In this document: positions 15,123 to 24,141 of the stretch, piece after piece
Numbering within the stretch: position 1 is the first letter of the stretch
Layout of the letters: each line of letters opens with the position of its first letter
Position numbers and translations under genes: made by a program
NCBI RefSeq assembly: GCF_003612055.1
Contig: NZ_RAWB01000011.1
Span: 1 to 45,383, forward strand
DNA length: 45,383 nt
DNA from: Corallococcus llansteffanensis
Lineage (GTDB): Bacteria > Myxococcota > Myxococcia > Myxococcales > Myxococcaceae
Direction of reading: 5' to 3'
The notes under the pieces: generated by a model
Told to the model about the DNA's origin: nothing
The model's input: only the letters and a program-made list of their open reading frames with translations
Databases searched by the model: none

Positions 15123-16148
15123 ATGGCTGAGGCTTCAGCGAAGAACGGGCACGGGGCGGCGAAAGGGACTTCGAATGGCCGGGCCCGCATCTGGGGAGGC
15201 ATCGACCTGGGAGGAACCAAGATTGAAGCGGTCATCGTGGACGCGCGTGGCGAGGTGCTGGGCCGGGCCCGCCACGTGACGCCCGTGAAGGGCGGTCCGG
15301 GCGAGGTGGTGAAGGAGCTGTACGGCGCGCTGGGGGACGCGGCGCAGACGGCCGGTGTCGAGCCCACGAAGCTCGCGGGCGTGGGCGTGGGCGCGCCGGG
15401 GTCGGTGGATGCGAACAGCGGCACGCTCGCGCACACGAGCAACGTGGCGGGGGGCTGGGAGGCGCCGTATCCGCTCGCGTCGGCCCTGGGCGACCTCGTG
15501 GGCGGCAAGGTGGTGATGGGCAACGACGTGCAGGTGGCGGTCGCGGCCGAGTACAAGCTGGGCGCGGGCCGCAACTACCGCTCCGTGCTGGGCGTGTGGT
15601 GGGGCACGGGCGTCGGCGGAGGGCTGGTGCTGAACGGCGTGCCGTGGCGCGGGCAGGGCGCCGCCGGAGAAATCGGGCACATGGTGGTGAAGGCCAACGG
15701 TGCGCGCTGTGGCTGTGGCCGGCGCGGCTGCCTGGAGGCCTACGCGGGCCGGGCGGCCATGGAGCGCAAGGCGCGTGCAGCGGTGAAGCAGGGGGAGAAG
15801 ACGATCCTCTTCGACATCATGCACGACAAGAAGCGCACGCGGCTGGCGAGCGGCGTGTGGGCGCGGGCGCTGAAGGAGAAGGATCCACTCGCGACGCGGC
15901 TCATCGACCGCGCGATGGAGATGATGAGCGTCGCGATCGCCTCCGTCATCAACCTGCTGGACCTGGAGGCGGTCGTCATCGGCGGGGGGCTGGGGTCGCG
16001 GCTGGGCATGCCGTACGTGGAGCGCATCTCCGATGCCATGCACCCGCACCTGTTCAGCACGGAGCGCAATCCCGCGATGCACGTGGCGGAGCTGGGCGAC
16101 CTGTCCGGCGCCATCGGCGCGGCGCTGCTCGCGGGCCCGCAGATGTGA
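15123..16148 (+). CDS. ROK-family sugar kinase (glucokinase-like)
   Basis: A 341-residue cytoplasmic ROK protein. The ATP-phosphate loop GIDLGGTKIE is near residues 26-35, and the second phosphate region WGTGVGGG is near 160. A zinc motif (CGCGRRGCLEAY) follows a conserved GEIGH, all typical of ROK glucokinases and N-acetylhexosamine kinases. There is no N-terminal helix-turn-helix, so it is a kinase rather than a ROK repressor. About 22 extra residues precede the ATP loop. It diverges from wzx and could prime sugar precursors for the polymer, though it may be central glucokinase. Substrate is not resolvable. Confidence 0.9.
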   Translation: MAEASAKNGHGAAKGTSNGRARIWGGIDLGGTKIEAVIVDARGEVLGRARHVTPVKGGPGEVVKELYGALGDAAQTAGVEPTKLAGVGVGAPGSVDANSGTLAHTSNVAGGWEAPYPLASALGDLVGGKVVMGNDVQVAVAAEYKLGAGRNYRSVLGVWWGTGVGGGLVLNGVPWRGQGAAGEIGHMVVKANGARCGCGRRGCLEAYAGRAAMERKARAAVKQGEKTILFDIMHDKKRTRLASGVWARALKEKDPLATRLIDRAMEMMSVAIASVINLLDLEAVVIGGGLGSRLGMPYVERISDAMHPHLFSTERNPAMHVAELGDLSGAIGAALLAGPQM

Positions 16149-16343: not shown

Positions 16344-16730
16344 ATGTTTGGTAGGGCGTTGTTGTCGCAGCGCGGCTTGCTGTTGGGGTTGTGTTCTTCA
16401 CTCCACGTCGGATGCAGCTCTCCTGACGAGAAGAGTCGAGAGCCAGCTGTCGTGGCCCAGGTCGCTCCGGTGGCCGTGGTAGGGGAGTGGCGCCCCTCTC
16501 CGTCAGCGGAGCCCGCCAGCAAATCCCTGGGGGAGGACTGCGGTTCGCATGGTGCCTCGGAATGTGTGACAGGGCTTTGCGTCCACGCCCGTGCACAGCG
16601 AGGAGCAGGCTATGTCTGCAGTCAACGCTGTGAGGGTGCCTCGGACTGCCCCTCCCCTTGGCGTTGCATCAGCGTCGTGCCAGGCGCGAAAGAGGCCGTG
16701 TGCCTGCCGCCTGTTGCGACCGACCCGTAG
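16344..16730 (+). CDS. Cys-rich probable lipoprotein upstream of rhs
   Basis: A 128-residue protein. It has a hydrophobic leader (LLLGLCSSLHVGC) ending at Cys24, a rather poor lipobox because of His at -3. After a Pro/Ala/Ser-rich linker comes a domain of about 60 residues with eight cysteines in a CxnECxnLCxnVCxxRCxnDCxnRCxnVC pattern, which fits four disulfides in the periplasm or outside. I recognise no named family; similar knots are common in myxobacterial surface proteins. It lies 63 bases before rhs on the same strand and is probably co-transcribed. A role in surface display or folding of the RHS protein is inference only. Confidence 0.72.
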   Translation: MFGRALLSQRGLLLGLCSSLHVGCSSPDEKSREPAVVAQVAPVAVVGEWRPSPSAEPASKSLGEDCGSHGASECVTGLCVHARAQRGAGYVCSQRCEGASDCPSPWRCISVVPGAKEAVCLPPVATDP

Positions 16731-16793
16731 AACCCATCCATTCATGTTGATGACGTTGCTGGAAATCCGGTCTTTCTAGAGGGAACGACGTTG

Positions 16794-19700
16794 ATGAACA
16801 TCCGTGTGTTGTGGTTGAGCGCGTTGCGATTGCGCGTGGCCTTCGTTGTGATGGGATGCCTGCTGGTGGCCGCAGGCGCCATCGCGCTCACCAACGATGG
16901 GGAGTACACTGAAGACGAGCTGAACGAGAAGGTCGCACAGGCGTCCCTCAATCCGTTGCCGGACCTGGGCGGGCCTGGCCAGTATGGCCTGTCCGACGTG
17001 AGTCCCGTGACGCTCGGTTCGCTCAAATCCAGCCACTCGCACACGGACCTCAAGATCGGGTCCCCCTTTGGAAAGATATCCTTCAGTCGCTCCTACACGG
17101 GCGCCACCAGCGCCTGGCGCGAAGGAAAGCCTTCCACCAAACTCAATTCACCTTTCGGAAAGATCGCGGCCACGGGCTCTTTCACGGGCGATGCATTGCA
17201 GTGGTGGCACGGCTGGCACAGTTTCATCCTGATACGTGAAACGACCGAATGCAATGATGAGCTGCCGCCGTATCGAGAGTGTGAGCAGGTTGTATGGTGG
17301 GATGTCCATGGCGGCCCAGCAGGAACGAAGAACAGCTTCAGGGCATGTGAAACGGAAGGATGTTTCGGTAACAACGAGTCCGAGCAGGTATTGAAGGTGC
17401 AGCGGTCCATGGATGGATTCGTGGTCCACTCCCCGAGCGGTCGCTATCACTACCGGGACTTTCGCGCGGTGGGCGCCATCCAGGACCTGCCCCTGGGGCG
17501 GCAGATCCTCTGGAGTGGTGCCTACTATCTGAGCTACGTGGAATCACCCCAATACGATGAACCTGCGTGCGCGCTCGAAGGAAAGGACGACGCCGGAACG
17601 GCAGTCAGCGCCTCGTGCCACCATCGGACGATCCGTTTCGACTACAAGGTTCCGGATGAGTGTGGGGGCCCCAACGCCTCACAGACCCTGGGCGCTGCGT
17701 TTCCTGTTCTCGCCAGTGCGACGAGCGCCAACGGCGCTCGCTTTGACTTCCACTACGTGGCCTTGCCGTCCCGGGTTCCTGCGCTGATTGGCAAGACGCA
17801 CGAATGCGTCCTCGCCTCCATTGACATCGTGGGGCGGGGCGGAGCCGTCGAACAAGGCGCCGTTCAGTACAGCTATTGGAACAACCAGGCCGGCCTCCTG
17901 TCGAAGGTGGAGTGGCTTGGAGCAGGCGGCACGCCAGGGACGACGTTGGAATACGCCTATGTGAATGGACAAGGCGCTCCGATCTGGGAAATCAAGCAGG
18001 ATGGCGCCCTGGTCGTCAGGCAGGAGATGAAGGACGCAGGGGGAGGCGAGCTCTATGTGATCCGCGACGTGACAGAGCACGAGGGGCAGACGATCAGTGT
18101 GTCAGGAACGGCCTGCGCGCCTGGCCATTTCGGGACTTCCCCCGGTTCTCCCTGTAGCCGGTCCCAGCAGCAGTTGTTCACCACCCTGGCGCCCAACCAG
18201 GGGGATGGCACGGGAACCACCGTGAACGCGGTGAACCGCAATTTCAACGTGGTCCTGGCAGGCGTCGAGCCCGTAGGAGATCAAGGCCCGCTTGTTCGGG
18301 AGAAGACGACCGTGGTCTTCTGCGAAACCGGGTGCGCAGCCATCAACGGTCAGCAGGTCACGACGGAGGCGTGGGGCTGGACCTCCCTTGGTACCGCGCC
18401 CTACGCGGGAACCATTGAAGTCGCGAGCAACGTCCGGGATCCCAACGGGAACTACACCGTCTATCAGCACTCGCTCAAGCGCGATGCTGGAGTCGGCTTC
18501 CTGCCACAAGTCGAGATGAACCGGGTCTACATGGGGGCCCAGTCGGATGGTGGTACCCCTCTCATCCAGCGTGACTACACCTATGCGTACGGTGGCGAAG
18601 CGATTCCTGCTGCCCGTCGTGCGTACGAGCAACTCGTCAAGAGTGATTTGGCCCCCTCCTCCTTCAGCGAGGAGGTGCCAGGGGCCCAGGTTGAAACCTC
18701 TCGGCAGTACGACCCCGCGACGAACAGGCTGATGGGCGTGGTGCGCACGGGGTTCTCCTGGGGGTTCTCCACACAGGCTCAGGCCTGGCAGCGCCAATCC
18801 CGATCCGTGGGTACCTTCTACCTGACGCATGATGCGTGTCTTGGCACTGGCTCCGTGGATGCGAAGGGACGGATGCGCACGATCATGGGTCCCTGTCAGG
18901 TGTCTGGGCCGACTGCCTCCAGCTGCGATGCGGGCGGGAACATCCCCCTGACCACGTATGAGTACTGGGACGACGCACAGTCTGATGACCGAGCGGGCCA
19001 CCTCAAGGCCAAGCGCGAGTATCCCCAGGGGTGTGGGTCCTCGGCCCTGGTGACGACATTTGACTCCTATGACCCCCGCGGGCGACTGGTGCAGAAGACC
19101 AACTCCAATCAGGTGGTGAGTCGGTTCGAGTACTCAAGGGATCGACTCGTCAGGTCCATCAATGCCTGGAATACCCCGCTCGAAGCCGTGACCGAGTATG
19201 GGTATGACGACAATGCAACGCACGGCGACTACGTCAAGAAGCCGAGTGGTCGCTACGAGGTGCTGTGCTTCCGGAGGAACACGCCGGCGGGACAGGGTTG
19301 CAAGGGCGGGAGTCGGTCCACGCTGTTGCAATGGAAAGCCAGCTCCACGACACCCGAGGGTGCGAACTACTCGGAGCGGGTCGACTACACGTATTACCTT
19401 GGAAGTCTCCAGAGCGAGACGTTCCGTGACGCCACGGGGCAGGTGCGCCGGACCCGTCACTACGAAGGCGACCCCCTCGGGCGCAAGACCTTCGAGGCTT
19501 GGGGCGCCACGGGACCGGCCACTGCGTCGGCGACGGTCTTCTCTCAGGTGAGCCTCTTCGACGCCGCAGGCAACCGTGTCGGCCTGGGGCTGCCCTACCA
19601 GGAGGAGATCGCGGCGCCTCCCCCGCTTTGCGAGGGTTTTGAAGCGGGCACGGATCGCCCGGTCAGTCCCTTTTGTAAGAGCTTTGCCTATGACAAGCTC

Positions 19701-22700
19701 AATCGCCTCGTGAACATGCTGGAGCCACTGCAGCCCGTGCTCGGCGATGGCATGTCCGCACAAATGTGCCTTGCATACGGGCCTGACGGGAACTTGAAGT
19801 CGGTCAAGCAGGGGTGCGACCGCTATCCAACGGGTGACTGCAGCAGCTGCAACCAGCCTGAGATTGAATACAAGTATGACGACTTTGGCAATGTCGTCCA
19901 GGTCCGCGCCCCATGGGGCAGGGGGCCGCAGGAAGTCGTGGGAGGCGGAGTTGGCCGGGGCCTCTTCCAGTTCGAATATGACGCGTCCTCGAACCTGGTC
20001 CGCAAGCAGACGCCGGTCATGTCGGAGGTCGCTTCCGCCCAGCAATGGATGGAATATGACTACGATGGACTGCGGCGGCCGCTGAAGGCGGAGCTGGTCA
20101 AGCGCGTCAGCGGGGTGGATTCCCGGGAAGCGCTCTTCACGTATGCGTATGACCATCAGGTGGCGGCCCCACAGGGATGCCCTGGTTATGACACCAGCCA
20201 TCCTGCTCTCGCCGAGGGACGAATCCAGGTCCAGAACGACTCCTTTGGTGACACCTGGTACCAGTACGACGTCCACGGAAACGTCATTGGCCTCTGGAAG
20301 ACCCGGGCCCAGTCGGGCGTGGCTCCCAGGAGCCAGGTCTGTATTGATGACAGCAGCGTCAACAGGCCCAACCGCTTCTTCTACTTTGACAGGGCCGGGC
20401 GTCTCGGCACCGAGCGCCTTCCGGGCGGACGGAGCATCCTCTACGGATACTACGGTATGGATACGGCGGACACCGAGCGCATCAAGGACGTCAGGGCATC
20501 CGTCTGGACGGGGTCGCATTGGGGCGGGATGCAGACCGTGGTGGAGGACGTGCGGTGGGAGCCTTTTGGCGGCTTGCGTTCGTACGTGCTGGTGGCTCCG
20601 GATGCGACGTCGGGCGCTCAGCGGGCGCGCGTGGAGTATCACCGAGACGGAACAAACCAGCCGCTGGCGCTCTGCTCCGCGGCTGGTTTGGGAGGCACGG
20701 GCGACACGACGGGCCGCCTGTTCGGGCTGACTGTTTCGAAGCAGGAGTCCGGTGGCGCCCTGGGGGACATCTTCAAGCGCATCTACACATGGAAGGCGGA
20801 CCAACTCGTGCAGGAGGACACCTGCCTGCTGGAGACGGGAAGTGTTCCTCCCGTGTCCATCCGTTACGCGGATCCCACCACCGGGAATGCCGGCTATGAC
20901 AGTCGCCAGCAGTTGCTGAGTGCGTTCCGGGCCGCAAATGCCTCCGCGGGCAAGGGGGGCGCCTTCGGCGCTCGCACGTACATGTACGATCTCCTGGGAA
21001 ATCGCACGCGGGATGTTCAGGAGGGGTGGGAGTTCAGGACGGAATACGGAGGTGACGGACCCAGGGTGGACCTGTTGACGGCGCGCTACCTGGCTGGACG
21101 GGATTGCTCGGGTGCGCTCTGTCCTCCCAGGTTCACGGTAACGCAGCGGTACACCTACGATGCGGACGGACGGCTGAAGAAGCTGTCGTCCTACAAGAAC
21201 GTGACGGATGCGACGTCGTCACCCCTGTCCACGTTGGATTTCGATGCCTCGACCGACGGCAGGACCGCCGCACTCGGTATGGTCTACCGGCAGGTGACGG
21301 ACAACGAAGGGCGGATGTATGAGTATTTCTACGACGCGAGTGGGCGGCGGCGCCTCAAGCGCTTCCCCGTGAGTTCGCCCAACAGGTTCCTTGAGGATGA
21401 ATACTTCTATGACGGCACCCGTCTTGTTGAAGACTGGGGACACACGAGCTTCGACCCGGATACGGCGGACTCGGTGCGCGACGAATACATCTGGCTGGAC
21501 CAACGTCCCATCGCGCTCTTCAAGGCGCGAGTCACCCAGGCGGGGGTGAGGTCGGTAGACCTCGTGGGTGATTGTCCGCGCAATGGCAATGCCGCGCCGT
21601 GTGGCCTCTACTTCATCGTCACGGATGAAGGCGGCAAGCCCGTGATGATGTTGGATTCGCATCGTCGGGTCGCAGGCGTTGGTGACTACGAACCTTATGG
21701 TCACGTGAACCGGACGACGCAGATCGCTGAATCACCCCTGATGTCCGTCAATCAGAGCGCGCTGCTGGCGACCGCCGAACTTCCGACATCCAGCACGCTG
21801 CTGGTTCAGGCCCGGGCGCGGCTGTCCGTCGTGGACGTTGGAGCGTCAAGTTCCGTCTACCCTACGGACGGTGAAGATATGGAGATGAACTCGGTGGATG
21901 GCAGCTCCGCCCGGGTGTCTTCGGTCAAGCGACACATGCTGGTCATGAAGTGGGTTCAACTTCCGCCTGGGGAGGTCCTGAAGGTCTGGATCTCCAAGGG
22001 CGCCCTCGCTCAATCGCGCAGTGACGCGGCGGTTGCGGGATTTGAGTACCGGCGTTTCCAGCCAGGGGCCACGCCCGTATGGACGCCTTTGCGGCTCCCC
22101 GGGCAATATCATGATGAAGAGACTGACCTGATGGAGAACTGGAACCGGTTCTATGATGCATCACTTGGCCGGTTCACCGCGCCGGATCCCCTGGTGAACT
22201 CACCTGGCAACCTGGCGAAGGGCGCTGGAAACGGAAATGCCCTGCGTGCGTACGCCTACGCGAATGGGAATCCCATCGGTGCCATGGATTCGGATGGATT
22301 GAAGATCGTGGTGTCTTCTGGCGATGGTGAACTCAGTGATGAGGATTGGGAGCGGTACTGGAAGGTTGTGGAAGAGGTCAGGGATATGATGAACGATCCC
22401 GTGGTGGGCGAGGAGGTGCGGGCGCTGAATGACGATGAAGACTATGTTCTCGTCATCAATGCCCTGCGGGACTCAGGCAAAGCGACCTCTGGAAGCGTCA
22501 CACCCGGAACCCAGGAGGGTGAGAATGGCGCCACGGTCATGAATCTCAACAAGAACTTCGAGAAGGGCAAGTATGGGCCTGTGGGGAAGGAACAGGCGAC
22601 GACTTTTCGTGAGACTGTCTGGCATGAAATGGGTCACGCGGTGTATGACTTCCAGAAACGTCCAGCGATGAGTCGAAGTGATAAAGGCGCGTTCATGGGG

Positions 22701-22808
22701 TATGTCGACCCAGAGGCAAGCAAGAAGAACAATGAGAAGGCGATTGAGTATATGAATAGAAGGCGCGCCTTGATTCCGGCTCCTCCAATAGCGGGACACA
22801 GGGATTGA
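16794..22808 (+). CDS. Exported RHS-repeat protein with C-terminal metallopeptidase-like toxin tip
   Basis: A 2004-residue protein. A positively charged start and hydrophobic stretch (residues about 14-32, VAFVVMGCLLVAAGAIAL) predict Sec export or an N-terminal anchor. The body carries many RHS/YD motifs such as YDPRGRLVQ, YDDFGNVVQ, YDADGRLKK and YDASGRRRLK, which form a beta-cocoon. The core ends with FYDASLGRFTAPDPL near 1790 and NPIGAMDSDGL at 1826-1836. The last 168 residues differ in style and contain WHEMGH (HEMGH at 1944-1948), a zinc HExxH site, with downstream Glu candidates in NNEKAIEYMNRR; this resembles NleD/M91-type RHS tips. There is no PAAR domain. The ATG at 16794 is preferred over TTG at 16791; AGAGGGA precedes both. 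Role inferred as contact-dependent antagonism. Confidence 0.88.
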   Translation: MNIRVLWLSALRLRVAFVVMGCLLVAAGAIALTNDGEYTEDELNEKVAQASLNPLPDLGGPGQYGLSDVSPVTLGSLKSSHSHTDLKIGSPFGKISFSRSYTGATSAWREGKPSTKLNSPFGKIAATGSFTGDALQWWHGWHSFILIRETTECNDELPPYRECEQVVWWDVHGGPAGTKNSFRACETEGCFGNNESEQVLKVQRSMDGFVVHSPSGRYHYRDFRAVGAIQDLPLGRQILWSGAYYLSYVESPQYDEPACALEGKDDAGTAVSASCHHRTIRFDYKVPDECGGPNASQTLGAAFPVLASATSANGARFDFHYVALPSRVPALIGKTHECVLASIDIVGRGGAVEQGAVQYSYWNNQAGLLSKVEWLGAGGTPGTTLEYAYVNGQGAPIWEIKQDGALVVRQEMKDAGGGELYVIRDVTEHEGQTISVSGTACAPGHFGTSPGSPCSRSQQQLFTTLAPNQGDGTGTTVNAVNRNFNVVLAGVEPVGDQGPLVREKTTVVFCETGCAAINGQQVTTEAWGWTSLGTAPYAGTIEVASNVRDPNGNYTVYQHSLKRDAGVGFLPQVEMNRVYMGAQSDGGTPLIQRDYTYAYGGEAIPAARRAYEQLVKSDLAPSSFSEEVPGAQVETSRQYDPATNRLMGVVRTGFSWGFSTQAQAWQRQSRSVGTFYLTHDACLGTGSVDAKGRMRTIMGPCQVSGPTASSCDAGGNIPLTTYEYWDDAQSDDRAGHLKAKREYPQGCGSSALVTTFDSYDPRGRLVQKTNSNQVVSRFEYSRDRLVRSINAWNTPLEAVTEYGYDDNATHGDYVKKPSGRYEVLCFRRNTPAGQGCKGGSRSTLLQWKASSTTPEGANYSERVDYTYYLGSLQSETFRDATGQVRRTRHYEGDPLGRKTFEAWGATGPATASATVFSQVSLFDAAGNRVGLGLPYQEEIAAPPPLCEGFEAGTDRPVSPFCKSFAYDKLNRLVNMLEPLQPVLGDGMSAQMCLAYGPDGNLKSVKQGCDRYPTGDCSSCNQPEIEYKYDDFGNVVQVRAPWGRGPQEVVGGGVGRGLFQFEYDASSNLVRKQTPVMSEVASAQQWMEYDYDGLRRPLKAELVKRVSGVDSREALFTYAYDHQVAAPQGCPGYDTSHPALAEGRIQVQNDSFGDTWYQYDVHGNVIGLWKTRAQSGVAPRSQVCIDDSSVNRPNRFFYFDRAGRLGTERLPGGRSILYGYYGMDTADTERIKDVRASVWTGSHWGGMQTVVEDVRWEPFGGLRSYVLVAPDATSGAQRARVEYHRDGTNQPLALCSAAGLGGTGDTTGRLFGLTVSKQESGGALGDIFKRIYTWKADQLVQEDTCLLETGSVPPVSIRYADPTTGNAGYDSRQQLLSAFRAANASAGKGGAFGARTYMYDLLGNRTRDVQEGWEFRTEYGGDGPRVDLLTARYLAGRDCSGALCPPRFTVTQRYTYDADGRLKKLSSYKNVTDATSSPLSTLDFDASTDGRTAALGMVYRQVTDNEGRMYEYFYDASGRRRLKRFPVSSPNRFLEDEYFYDGTRLVEDWGHTSFDPDTADSVRDEYIWLDQRPIALFKARVTQAGVRSVDLVGDCPRNGNAAPCGLYFIVTDEGGKPVMMLDSHRRVAGVGDYEPYGHVNRTTQIAESPLMSVNQSALLATAELPTSSTLLVQARARLSVVDVGASSSVYPTDGEDMEMNSVDGSSARVSSVKRHMLVMKWVQLPPGEVLKVWISKGALAQSRSDAAVAGFEYRRFQPGATPVWTPLRLPGQYHDEETDLMENWNRFYDASLGRFTAPDPLVNSPGNLAKGAGNGNALRAYAYANGNPIGAMDSDGLKIVVSSGDGELSDEDWERYWKVVEEVRDMMNDPVVGEEVRALNDDEDYVLVINALRDSGKATSGSVTPGTQEGENGATVMNLNKNFEKGKYGPVGKEQATTFRETVWHEMGHAVYDFQKRPAMSRSDKGAFMGYVDPEASKKNNEKAIEYMNRRRALIPAPPIAGHRD

Positions 22809-22810
22809 TT

Positions 22811-22840
22811 TGAGCCCGGTGCGCGGCATGGCCGGGTTCA
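22811..22840 (+). terminator. Hairpin directly after rhs
   Basis: TGAGCCCGG (22811-22819) pairs with CCGGGTTCA (22832-22840) over nine positions with one G-T wobble, leaving a 12-base loop. It begins two bases after the rhs stop and is followed by TTGTGT, a weak U-rich tract. It is a plausible intrinsic terminator or mRNA 3-prime stabiliser that would separate rhs from the downstream lipoprotein. Confidence 0.45.
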
Positions 22841-22862
22841 TTGTGTCGCAGCGGTGAGGCGG

Positions 22863-23006
22863 GTGAGCGCGCTTGCCCGGCTCGCGTGGTCGTCTGCGGG
22901 GATCGCACTGTCGTGGGGTCCCTGGGACGCGGAGGCGGTGGTGGAGCTCGTGCCGCATGGGGGGCTGGCGTCAGGCCCCCTCCCTCCTGCGATGATGCGA
23001 AGATAG
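22863..23006 (+). CDS. Candidate small ORF or gene remnant after rhs
   Basis: A 47-codon frame opening with GTG after GAGGCGG, ending in TAG just before the lipoprotein gene. The peptide begins VSALARLAWSSAGIALSW and is hydrophobic at first, then Pro/Gly-rich. By eye about four fifths of its codons end in G or C, higher than in the rhs tip just upstream. I recognise no family. It could be a real small exported peptide, the remains of a displaced immunity gene or old toxin tip, or chance in GC-rich DNA. Confidence 0.25.
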   Translation: MSALARLAWSSAGIALSWGPWDAEAVVELVPHGGLASGPLPPAMMRR

Positions 23007-23013
23007 GAATCAA

Positions 23014-23517
23014 ATGGGTGCGCTGCCTCGGTGGCTTGCGGTCTGGACGGTATTGGGAGTGGCTTTGGGAGGGACGGGCTGTGCCTCGTGGATACGAGGT
23101 GGCTCCGTCAAGGAGCGGATGGCGTGCTGGCGCAAGGACAACTGTGTCGTCCACGTTCCTTGTGAAGCCGTACGCTACGACTGGCCTCTGTCGGATGTAG
23201 ATGAGGCTCGCGCCCAGCAGGTGGCGGCTGGCATTCCAATGCTGCAGGGACGGTTCTTGACGGGCGACGGGAAGCCGTTGCCCGAGTTGGACTTCGTCCT
23301 GCTGGATGCGCCGAATGAAAACCCGGAGCCGGGCAACGTCGGTAGCCTGCCGGTAGGAACTCTGGAGATCTCGAAAGAAGGCTACTTTCGTTCCAACATT
23401 CCTAGACGCTACGCGGCGTATTACCTGGGTGTGATGGGAGGAAAATACCATCCCGTGGAGGTGCTGTTCAGCAAGGACACGTGTGTGGAAGTCTACCTTG
23501 TCCCCTACAAGCACTGA
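23014..23517 (+). CDS. Lipoprotein, candidate immunity partner of the RHS toxin
   Basis: A 167-residue protein with a signal peptide ending in a good lipobox (LGGTGC, Cys23). The mature part has two Cys pairs early (ACWRKDNC, VPCEA) and a later segment DGKPLPELDFVLLDAP followed by SKEGYFRSNIP that reads like a small beta-sandwich. I do not recognise a family. The start has AGGAA eight bases ahead. Its place directly downstream of rhs, and a periplasm-facing location matching a Sec-exported toxin, make immunity plausible but unproven. The gap of 205 bases and a hairpin suggest its own promoter. Confidence 0.7.
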   Translation: MGALPRWLAVWTVLGVALGGTGCASWIRGGSVKERMACWRKDNCVVHVPCEAVRYDWPLSDVDEARAQQVAAGIPMLQGRFLTGDGKPLPELDFVLLDAPNENPEPGNVGSLPVGTLEISKEGYFRSNIPRRYAAYYLGVMGGKYHPVEVLFSKDTCVEVYLVPYKH

Positions 23518-23547: not shown

Positions 23548-24141
23548 CTACCGGTCGTTGCGGCGCATCACGGTCAACGAATCGTGCGTGTCCACGCGCT
23601 CGAACGCGGGGTCGTGGAGGATGACCTCCCGCGTGTAGCGCGCGCTGCCCGTGGTGTTCATCGGGCGTGAAGGACTGGCGTGGGTGTCGTGCAGCGCGAT
23701 GATGGCGCCCGGTGCCACCAGCGGGCTCCAGCCGGTCCAGTCACCCTGGAGCCCTTCGTAGGTGTGGTCCCCGTCGATGAAGACGAAGTCCACCGGAGGA
23801 AGGCCGCGCTCGCGGTGCCGTTTCGCGGCGCCGACGCCGGTGTCGCGCACCCAGTCCACGCGGCCGTTGCGCACGCTGTTCACCTCACGGTGCGCGATGA
23901 GCTGCTGGAAGCTCACGCGCAGGCGCCCCACCGGGTACGGGTCCACGGCCCACAGCGTCGCGGTGGGGTCCATCACCGCGCGCAGCACCCGCGTCGTCAC
24001 GCCGTGCCACACGCCGATCTCCACCAGTCGCTGTCGCCCCGCTGCATGCCGCGCGAGGCAGGCGCGCTCCCCCGCCGTTGTCTGCGTCTCCGCCTGGGCG
24101 AGGCCCGCCATCCAGAGGGCGAAGTGGGTGCTGACGCGCAT
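23548..24141 (-). CDS. Class I SAM-dependent methyltransferase (Methyltransf_24-like)
   Basis: A 197-residue cytoplasmic enzyme. Motif I appears as LVEIGVWHGVTTRV, and VDFVFIDGDHTYEGLQGDW with a following LVAPGAIIALHDT is characteristic of the Methyltransf_24/CmcI-like group that modifies sugars and natural products. The ATG at 24141 has AGGA seven bases upstream; the open frame extends much further but lies antisense to the neighbouring GT4 gene. It diverges from that GT4 with 108 bases between starts. Decoration of polysaccharide sugars is inferred from location. Confidence 0.85.
   Translation of the reverse strand: MRVSTHFALWMAGLAQAETQTTAGERACLARHAAGRQRLVEIGVWHGVTTRVLRAVMDPTATLWAVDPYPVGRLRVSFQQLIAHREVNSVRNGRVDWVRDTGVGAAKRHRERGLPPVDFVFIDGDHTYEGLQGDWTGWSPLVAPGAIIALHDTHASPSRPMNTTGSARYTREVILHDPAFERVDTHDSLTVMRRNDR

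Follow-up and report, generated by a model that had tools for sequence, protein, structure and literature searches.

How do large RHS toxins that bear a signal sequence arrive at the surface of a Gram-negative cell, and how are they delivered, when no secretion machine accompanies them? This question is raised by a locus of the myxobacterium Corallococcus llansteffanensis (assembly GCF_003612055.1, a genome of 10.5 Mb, G000 below). The locus lies on contig NZ_RAWB01000011.1, and the entire contig of 45,383 nucleotides was analysed and is called the window here. A checked list of open reading frames (ORFs) places three genes on the + strand in the order P1 (16344-16730), P2, the RHS protein (16791-22808), and P3 (23014-23517). 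A first-pass annotation of the sequence had described them in this order and had taken them for a possible unit made up of export, toxin and immunity parts. Our data indicate that P1 and the RHS gene are a conserved ordered pair recurring across myxobacteria, that the C-terminal tip of the RHS protein has been exchanged at most loci, and that P3 is not a fixed member of the unit.

The pair of P1 and the RHS gene

In the first set of genomes P1 was found at 46 places (E ≤ 1e-7), and at 42 of them an RHS gene lies downstream on the same strand within 4.5 kb; the remaining four are close to a contig end on the RHS side, at a distance of 0.5-0.9 kb. Counted from the other partner, P1 lies alongside 39 of 45 long RHS hits. 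Among the six others one P1 (L095) was recovered by profile (E 7e-14), four hits are at contig ends and one has none, and P1 is present just upstream in 40 of the 41 long RHS homologues that could be evaluated. Held-out Myxococcaceae genomes gave the same picture, with P1 at 38 of 40 long RHS hits and RHS at 40 of 44 P1 hits. The ordered set that was expected across myxobacteria is thus found for the pair; it is not found for the triad. Partners were counted as linked when they share a strand and their hits are no more than 4.5 kb apart; in some loci a gene may intervene. The first count drew on 53 P1 rows (E down to 3.0e-5) and 53 RHS rows, with weaker rows and short tail-only RHS matches omitted. 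The held-out count drew on 44 P1 rows and 51 RHS rows from genomes outside the first set; the weakest tail-only RHS rows were omitted, as were the P1 rows G127:C128, G160:C405, G161:C630 and G162:C70 (E 5e-10 to 5e-9, open frames of 612-740 amino acids). At E ≤ 1e-3, and with weak tail-only matches counted, 44 of 98 relatives have an RHS homologue; at E ≤ 1e-20, 57 of 96 Myxococcaceae genomes do. The window's own genome carries a second P1-RHS pair (G000:C524, L067).

The features of the locus are as follows; signal peptides, lipoboxes and most tip names in this study were judged by eye.

15123-16148, + strand: gene which we take, from its sequence, to be ROK-type kinase-like; conserved left border of the site, with a single match of 82-91% identity in 15 of 15 other genomes of the genus
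16344-16730, + strand: P1, small Cys-rich probable outer-membrane lipoprotein of 128 amino acids, partner of the RHS protein
16794-22808, + strand: P2, RHS/YD-repeat protein with a Sec-type signal at about residues 1-32
22302-22805, + strand: putative toxin domain, the variable C-terminal tip that follows the border AMDSDGLK
22623-22637, + strand: HEMGH in the tip, an HExxH zinc-metallopeptidase motif
22809-22957, + strand: 3' tail of the RHS unit, with no plausible immunity ORF on this strand
23014-23517, + strand: P3, second probable lipoprotein of 167 amino acids, either a candidate for immunity or a gene resident in the locus
23548-24141, - strand: methyltransferase (Methyltransf_24), right border of the site

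The N-terminus of P1 has a hydrophobic stretch up to Cys24. Of 45 homologues at least 90% share this lipobox residue, and eight other cysteines are invariant across the 45. The earlier description of P1 as a Cys-rich probable lipoprotein is upheld by these residues. The label "Cys-knot-like" was dropped, as no family of Pfam, NCBIfam or PADLOC was matched, and only the eight invariant cysteines are kept from it; PADLOC gave no match for P2 or P3 either. Weak P1-like matches occur within proteins of at least 600 amino acids, and therefore the Cys motif itself is more widespread.

P2 has 2005 amino acids when read from the TTG at 16791 and about 2004 from the ATG at 16794. It matches RHS_repeat in Pfam (E 9.1e-11) and Rhs_assc_core in NCBIfam (E 6.2e-15, residues 1765-1837), as well as YD_repeat, and by sequence it weakly resembles the solved Rhs proteins 8h8a, 8h8b and 7q97. 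A clear hydrophobic Sec-type start is present in P2 and in many homologues. A cysteine lies within the hydrophobic stretch of P2 and the hydrophobicity extends beyond it, which was read as a signal peptidase I (SPI) signal. The Pfam scan found no PAAR family in P2 at E ≤ 1 and no teneurin domain, and the earlier description of an RHS protein without PAAR is borne out. It had also been regarded as unusual for such a protein to carry a Sec signal, and this was not sustained, as the class is already recognised (PMC10433427; PMC3482391; these and the other papers cited here are quoted for the portions of their text that were available). PMC3482391 puts many RHS toxins in its type II secretion system export class. 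For a P1-type lipoprotein partner, no description was found in the open-access papers searched. On the best reading, the lipoprotein partner would be the undescribed element of this locus, and P2 would be a polymorphic RHS toxin displayed in the envelope or at the surface, of the Sec-exported class known from WapA and from Rhs4 and Rhs5 of M. xanthus.

The exchangeable tip

The core of the RHS protein is conserved up to a DPxG-type border, and beyond it unrelated tips of about 100-180 residues follow at most loci. Alignments of homologues to P2 mostly end at about residue 1837-1845, just past the border, which reads AMDSDGLK here. Under forced alignment, the 44 tips compared share 10-22% identity with the tip of the window. 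Pfam recognised Tlde1 in two of the 44, DUF6973 in one and Aspzincin_M35 in one, with three further marginal hits, and NCBIfam matched none. By their motifs, the tips of L087 and L097 resemble Tlde1-type L,D-transpeptidase domains, the members of the two Tlde1_dom hits being unnamed in the Pfam result.

The HExxH motif occurs in 15 of the 44 tips against about 0.15 expected (P ~1e-24, the tips being partly non-independent, with L080 and L084 near-identical and L058 and L059 related), and in the core it occurs twice in 79,616 residues. The window tip carries it as HEMGH near the C-terminus of P2, which the first-pass annotation had not remarked upon, and the tip is predicted to be a zinc metallopeptidase. 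Tips that bear HExxH are often rich in cysteine, which suits an oxidising compartment; the window tip has none. In G138, a genome of another genus, the tip also contains HEMGH and is weakly similar to that of the window (25%, E 0.005); it was missed by searches with the tip and found through the core. The tip of the second pair in the window's genome (L067) has HEAVH, and a small membrane-anchored protein follows directly after it.

With its conserved core and exchanged tips, P2 is built like a polymorphic toxin whose tip can be swapped. At L069, L088, L094, L101 and L108, short RHS stubs that carry different tips were seen 3' of full RHS genes and resemble orphan toxin cassettes. ORFs that look like transposases or resolvases lie near RHS tips at L065, L071, L072, L074, L076, L085, L086 and L088. 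In the window the G+C content is 62% for the RHS core, 54% for the tip and 60% for P3, against 72% in the genes on both sides, a contrast on which the first-pass annotation was also silent. Over 43 RHS loci the means are 62.9% for the RHS ORF, 57.1% for its final 480 nucleotides and 68.8% for the flanks; because these show the same pattern, a module of low G+C is typical of the RHS family.

The ROK site and the place of P3

The unit lies in polysaccharide-type surroundings, as had been claimed: among ten ORFs scanned one matches Wzz/GNVR/AAA_31 families, five GT4-type glycosyltransferases and one a methyltransferase, and three are without match. The ROK gene is present once in each of 16 genomes of the genus, which allows the site to be compared. 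In G000 the ROK gene is followed by P1, RHS, P3 and the methyltransferase, and in G002, which the ROK tree places closest to it, by the methyltransferase only. At this site G007, G009, G013 and G015 carry P3 but lack the pair, an acyltransferase-like gene is present in G005, and the remaining genomes of the genus have other content or could not be resolved. Two other genera have the pair behind the ROK gene and lack P3 there (G047 and G032; G150, G146, G137 and G138). The ROK gene is the left neighbour of the pair in seven genomes of three genera, and at this single site the same RHS core carries different tips. Thus around the same RHS core the neighbours differ downstream (P3) and stay the same upstream (P1). 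Since P3 is found in four sister species without the pair and is absent beside six orthologous pairs, it cannot be a fixed third part, and the ordered triad that the first-pass annotation proposed is not supported.

The RHS cores at the ROK site are mutual closest relatives and group by genus with good support in a tree that used one stretch per RHS, and a copy from elsewhere, in G142, is nested inside them. From this grouping it follows that the pair was probably at the site in the ancestor. The simplest reading is that an old P1-RHS unit occupies the ROK address, that its tips and downstream genes have been exchanged, and that it was lost in most of the genus; a transfer between genera using the flanking homology is possible as an alternative. 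An insertion of the pair in the window's lineage only was considered and dropped, as the pair stands at the ROK site in four genomes of the third genus. A flanking direct repeat that could mark an insertion was also looked for. The junction alignment was matched by 158 of 500 shuffles, and therefore no mobile element is claimed. At L132-L146 species of the genus differ in the genes that stand between ROK and the glycosyltransferase, and this part of the polysaccharide locus appears to be a site of variable cargo.

Several RHS loci have a gene close behind the RHS stop or overlapping it by 4 nucleotides. Where such a gene lies within about 100 nucleotides, it looks signal-bearing or membrane-bound in 5 of 5 cases beside HExxH tips, compared with 5 of 13 beside other tips (P 0.029 by a one-sided Fisher test, in a small comparison made by eye with cut-offs chosen after the list had been seen, and leaving out L085 for its transposase-like neighbour and the window for its gap of 205 nucleotides). 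Such genes beside HExxH tips fit a peptidase that acts in the envelope. At 10 of the 15 HExxH loci, the window among them, no close gene of this kind was called. In the window the + strand of 22809-22957 holds no immunity-like ORF. From about 22958 a stretch of 41 bp aligns with the spacer between ROK and P3 in the four sister species, and therefore no immunity-like gene lies between the RHS stop and that point. P3 is left as the only immunity candidate for this RHS unit.

P3 starts with a lipobox-like signal, GTGC with Cys23 (STGC in the four orthologues). The first 60 residues of the four orthologues are 84-98% alike and the remainder 37-74%; the constant N-terminal and divergent C-terminal part is seen at L133, L134, L135 and L137 as well as in P3, with 98% and 37% for the two parts between G015 and G009. 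P3 and its orthologues would thus be polymorphic lipoproteins in their own right, also in species without RHS at the site. The single-sequence structure model of P3 is poor, with a mean predicted local distance difference test score (pLDDT) of 46.8.

Two explanations of P3 can be offered, and the balance between them is even. The first, to which we give close to an even chance, keeps a three-part unit in which P1 is the export partner, the RHS protein is the toxin and P3 neutralises its metallopeptidase in the periplasm, the sister species having lost the pair and kept P3 as an orphan. The ancestry of the pair at the ROK site speaks for it. The branch of the genus to which the window belongs has P3 in both of its subclades, and therefore that ancestor may have had ROK, P1, RHS and P3 together. 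A lipoprotein is what would be expected for a periplasmic target, the C-terminal part of P3 is highly variable, and G138 with its weakly similar HEMGH tip has a signal-bearing gene of 135 amino acids 10 nucleotides downstream. The gap of 205 nucleotides, the diversification of P3 in species without RHS at the site and its absence beside any other RHS gene (five clear places in 96 Myxococcaceae genomes) argue against it. The protein downstream in G138 has no detectable similarity to P3 either (E 0.12 in a search with one sequence), the likeness in pattern seen by eye not being significant. The second explanation, judged to be just as near to even, takes P3 for a polymorphic lipoprotein that resides in the polysaccharide locus and has a role of its own, and immunity to the RHS protein would be absent or encoded elsewhere. 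It is favoured by the four species with ROK and P3 alone and by G002 with neither, by the C-terminal variability being independent of RHS, and by the lack of an immunity-like ORF in 22809-22957. Against it, P3 is rare and has a G+C content of 60-67%, below its neighbours, unlike a core gene of the locus.

A probable two-gene toxin unit and its relatives

On the evidence of the pairing and the tips, P1 and P2 probably form a two-gene polymorphic RHS toxin unit. P2 would be exported through Sec and would fold as an RHS/YD shell that holds the C-terminal tip as cargo. P1, as a disulfide-rich lipoprotein of the outer membrane, may be its dedicated partner; most likely it would tether the RHS protein to the cell surface, or it could aid folding or the crossing of the outer membrane, export as its task being a guess. 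Contact with a neighbouring cell would release the tip, which in this copy, as a predicted zinc metallopeptidase, would most likely act in the envelope of the target. Sister cells would be protected by a tip-specific immunity gene downstream, for which P3 is the sole candidate here.

Several points weigh against this reading. One evaluable RHS gene (L101, in G020) has no P1 by profile, and P1 is missing from 2 of the 40 held-out ones. For the HEMGH tip Pfam gave no match at E ≤ 0.01 and NCBIfam none at E ≤ 0.001, the best NCBIfam hit being flagellinolysin (E 0.0027, 17 bits against a cut-off of 205), and the single-sequence structure model of the tip is poor (mean pLDDT 42.8). Searches of 195 Myxococcota genomes, of plasmids, of phages and of the set of 98 genomes turned up no close relative of the tip, and a contig search with the tip gave one match of 15 residues, in a Chlamydiales bin. 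Many RHS loci are without a convincing adjacent immunity gene, and P3 starts 205 nucleotides past the RHS stop, where other candidates start at -31 to +102. The sister species that keep P3 without the pair and the small scale of the test on downstream genes belong here as well.

It could be argued that the RHS protein serves mainly in predation, adhesion or motility, with a tip that is a secreted enzyme and not a weapon against kin. Disruption of the M. xanthus rhs gene MXAN_6679 alters predation and motility (PMC10433427), and the many loci with no obvious adjacent immunity gene agree with such a role. The exchange of tips, the orphan tip modules and the genes overlapping by 4 nucleotides are typical of toxin-immunity systems, and we consider this explanation unlikely. 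That the RHS protein is cargo of a type VI secretion system (T6SS), as most studied Gram-negative Rhs effectors are (PMC10433427), is very improbable given the absence of a PAAR hit, the Sec-type N-terminus and a lipoprotein partner in place of an Eag or VgrG gene.

The proposed two-gene toxin unit has relatives among known systems. Rhs4 and Rhs5 of M. xanthus bear signal sequences and contribute to T6SS-independent kin discrimination (PMC10433427). The surface display and contact delivery that were suggested for this locus would fit the published role of these large Sec-signalled proteins. Like P2 as it is read here, Rhs4, Rhs5 and WapA of Bacillus have RHS repeats, an N-terminal signal, no T6SS part and a variable C-terminal toxin. 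Contact-dependent antagonism is demonstrated for them (PMC10433427). Unlike P2, Rhs4 and Rhs5 are about 4000 amino acids long and prophage-borne, and the available text of PMC10433427 mentions no lipoprotein partner. Teneurin-like proteins (TLPs), frequent in Myxococcaceae including Corallococcus (PMC13018210), share with P2 the YD shell and the polymorphic C-terminal toxin and also have a downstream immunity gene. Gram-negative TLPs are themselves predicted lipoproteins of the signal peptidase II type (PMC13018210), whereas P2 looks like an SPI substrate beside a separate small lipoprotein. SitBAI, which depends on outer-membrane exchange, is likewise a myxobacterial polymorphic toxin that has an upstream accessory gene, and it is targeted to the envelope (PMC5562445). 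In that system SitA, the toxin, is itself the lipoprotein and SitB is a Sec protein, whereas here the accessory P1 is the lipoprotein and the toxin an RHS protein of 2000 amino acids. HExxH tips on RHS carriers are known as Tox-MPTase1-5 and Tox-HopH1 (PMC3482391); no Pfam or NCBIfam model recognises the window tip. Among the immunity proteins collected in PMC3482391, Imm65 is described as the only lipoprotein; it pairs with Tox-JAB-1, not with an HExxH toxin.

In contact-dependent growth inhibition (CDI, CdiB/CdiA) an adjacent TpsB transporter is a feature. No TpsB gene lies beside the RHS gene of the window, whose neighbours are the ROK gene, P3 and the methyltransferase. We tentatively propose, at rather less than an even chance, a two-partner RHS display in myxobacteria, in which the eight-Cys lipoprotein would be the dedicated anchor or outer-membrane gateway for Sec-exported RHS toxins and take the place that TpsB has in CDI, with interchangeable tips that may often be metallopeptidases acting in the envelope.

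TLPs have no obvious delivery machinery (PMC13018210), and further study of myxobacterial Rhs proteins has been called for (PMC10433427). A lipoprotein gene that stands with nearly all of these RHS genes gives a direct handle on the question of how such proteins are delivered to the surface, and the ROK-P1-RHS site in three genera offers a natural series of tip exchange at a single address.

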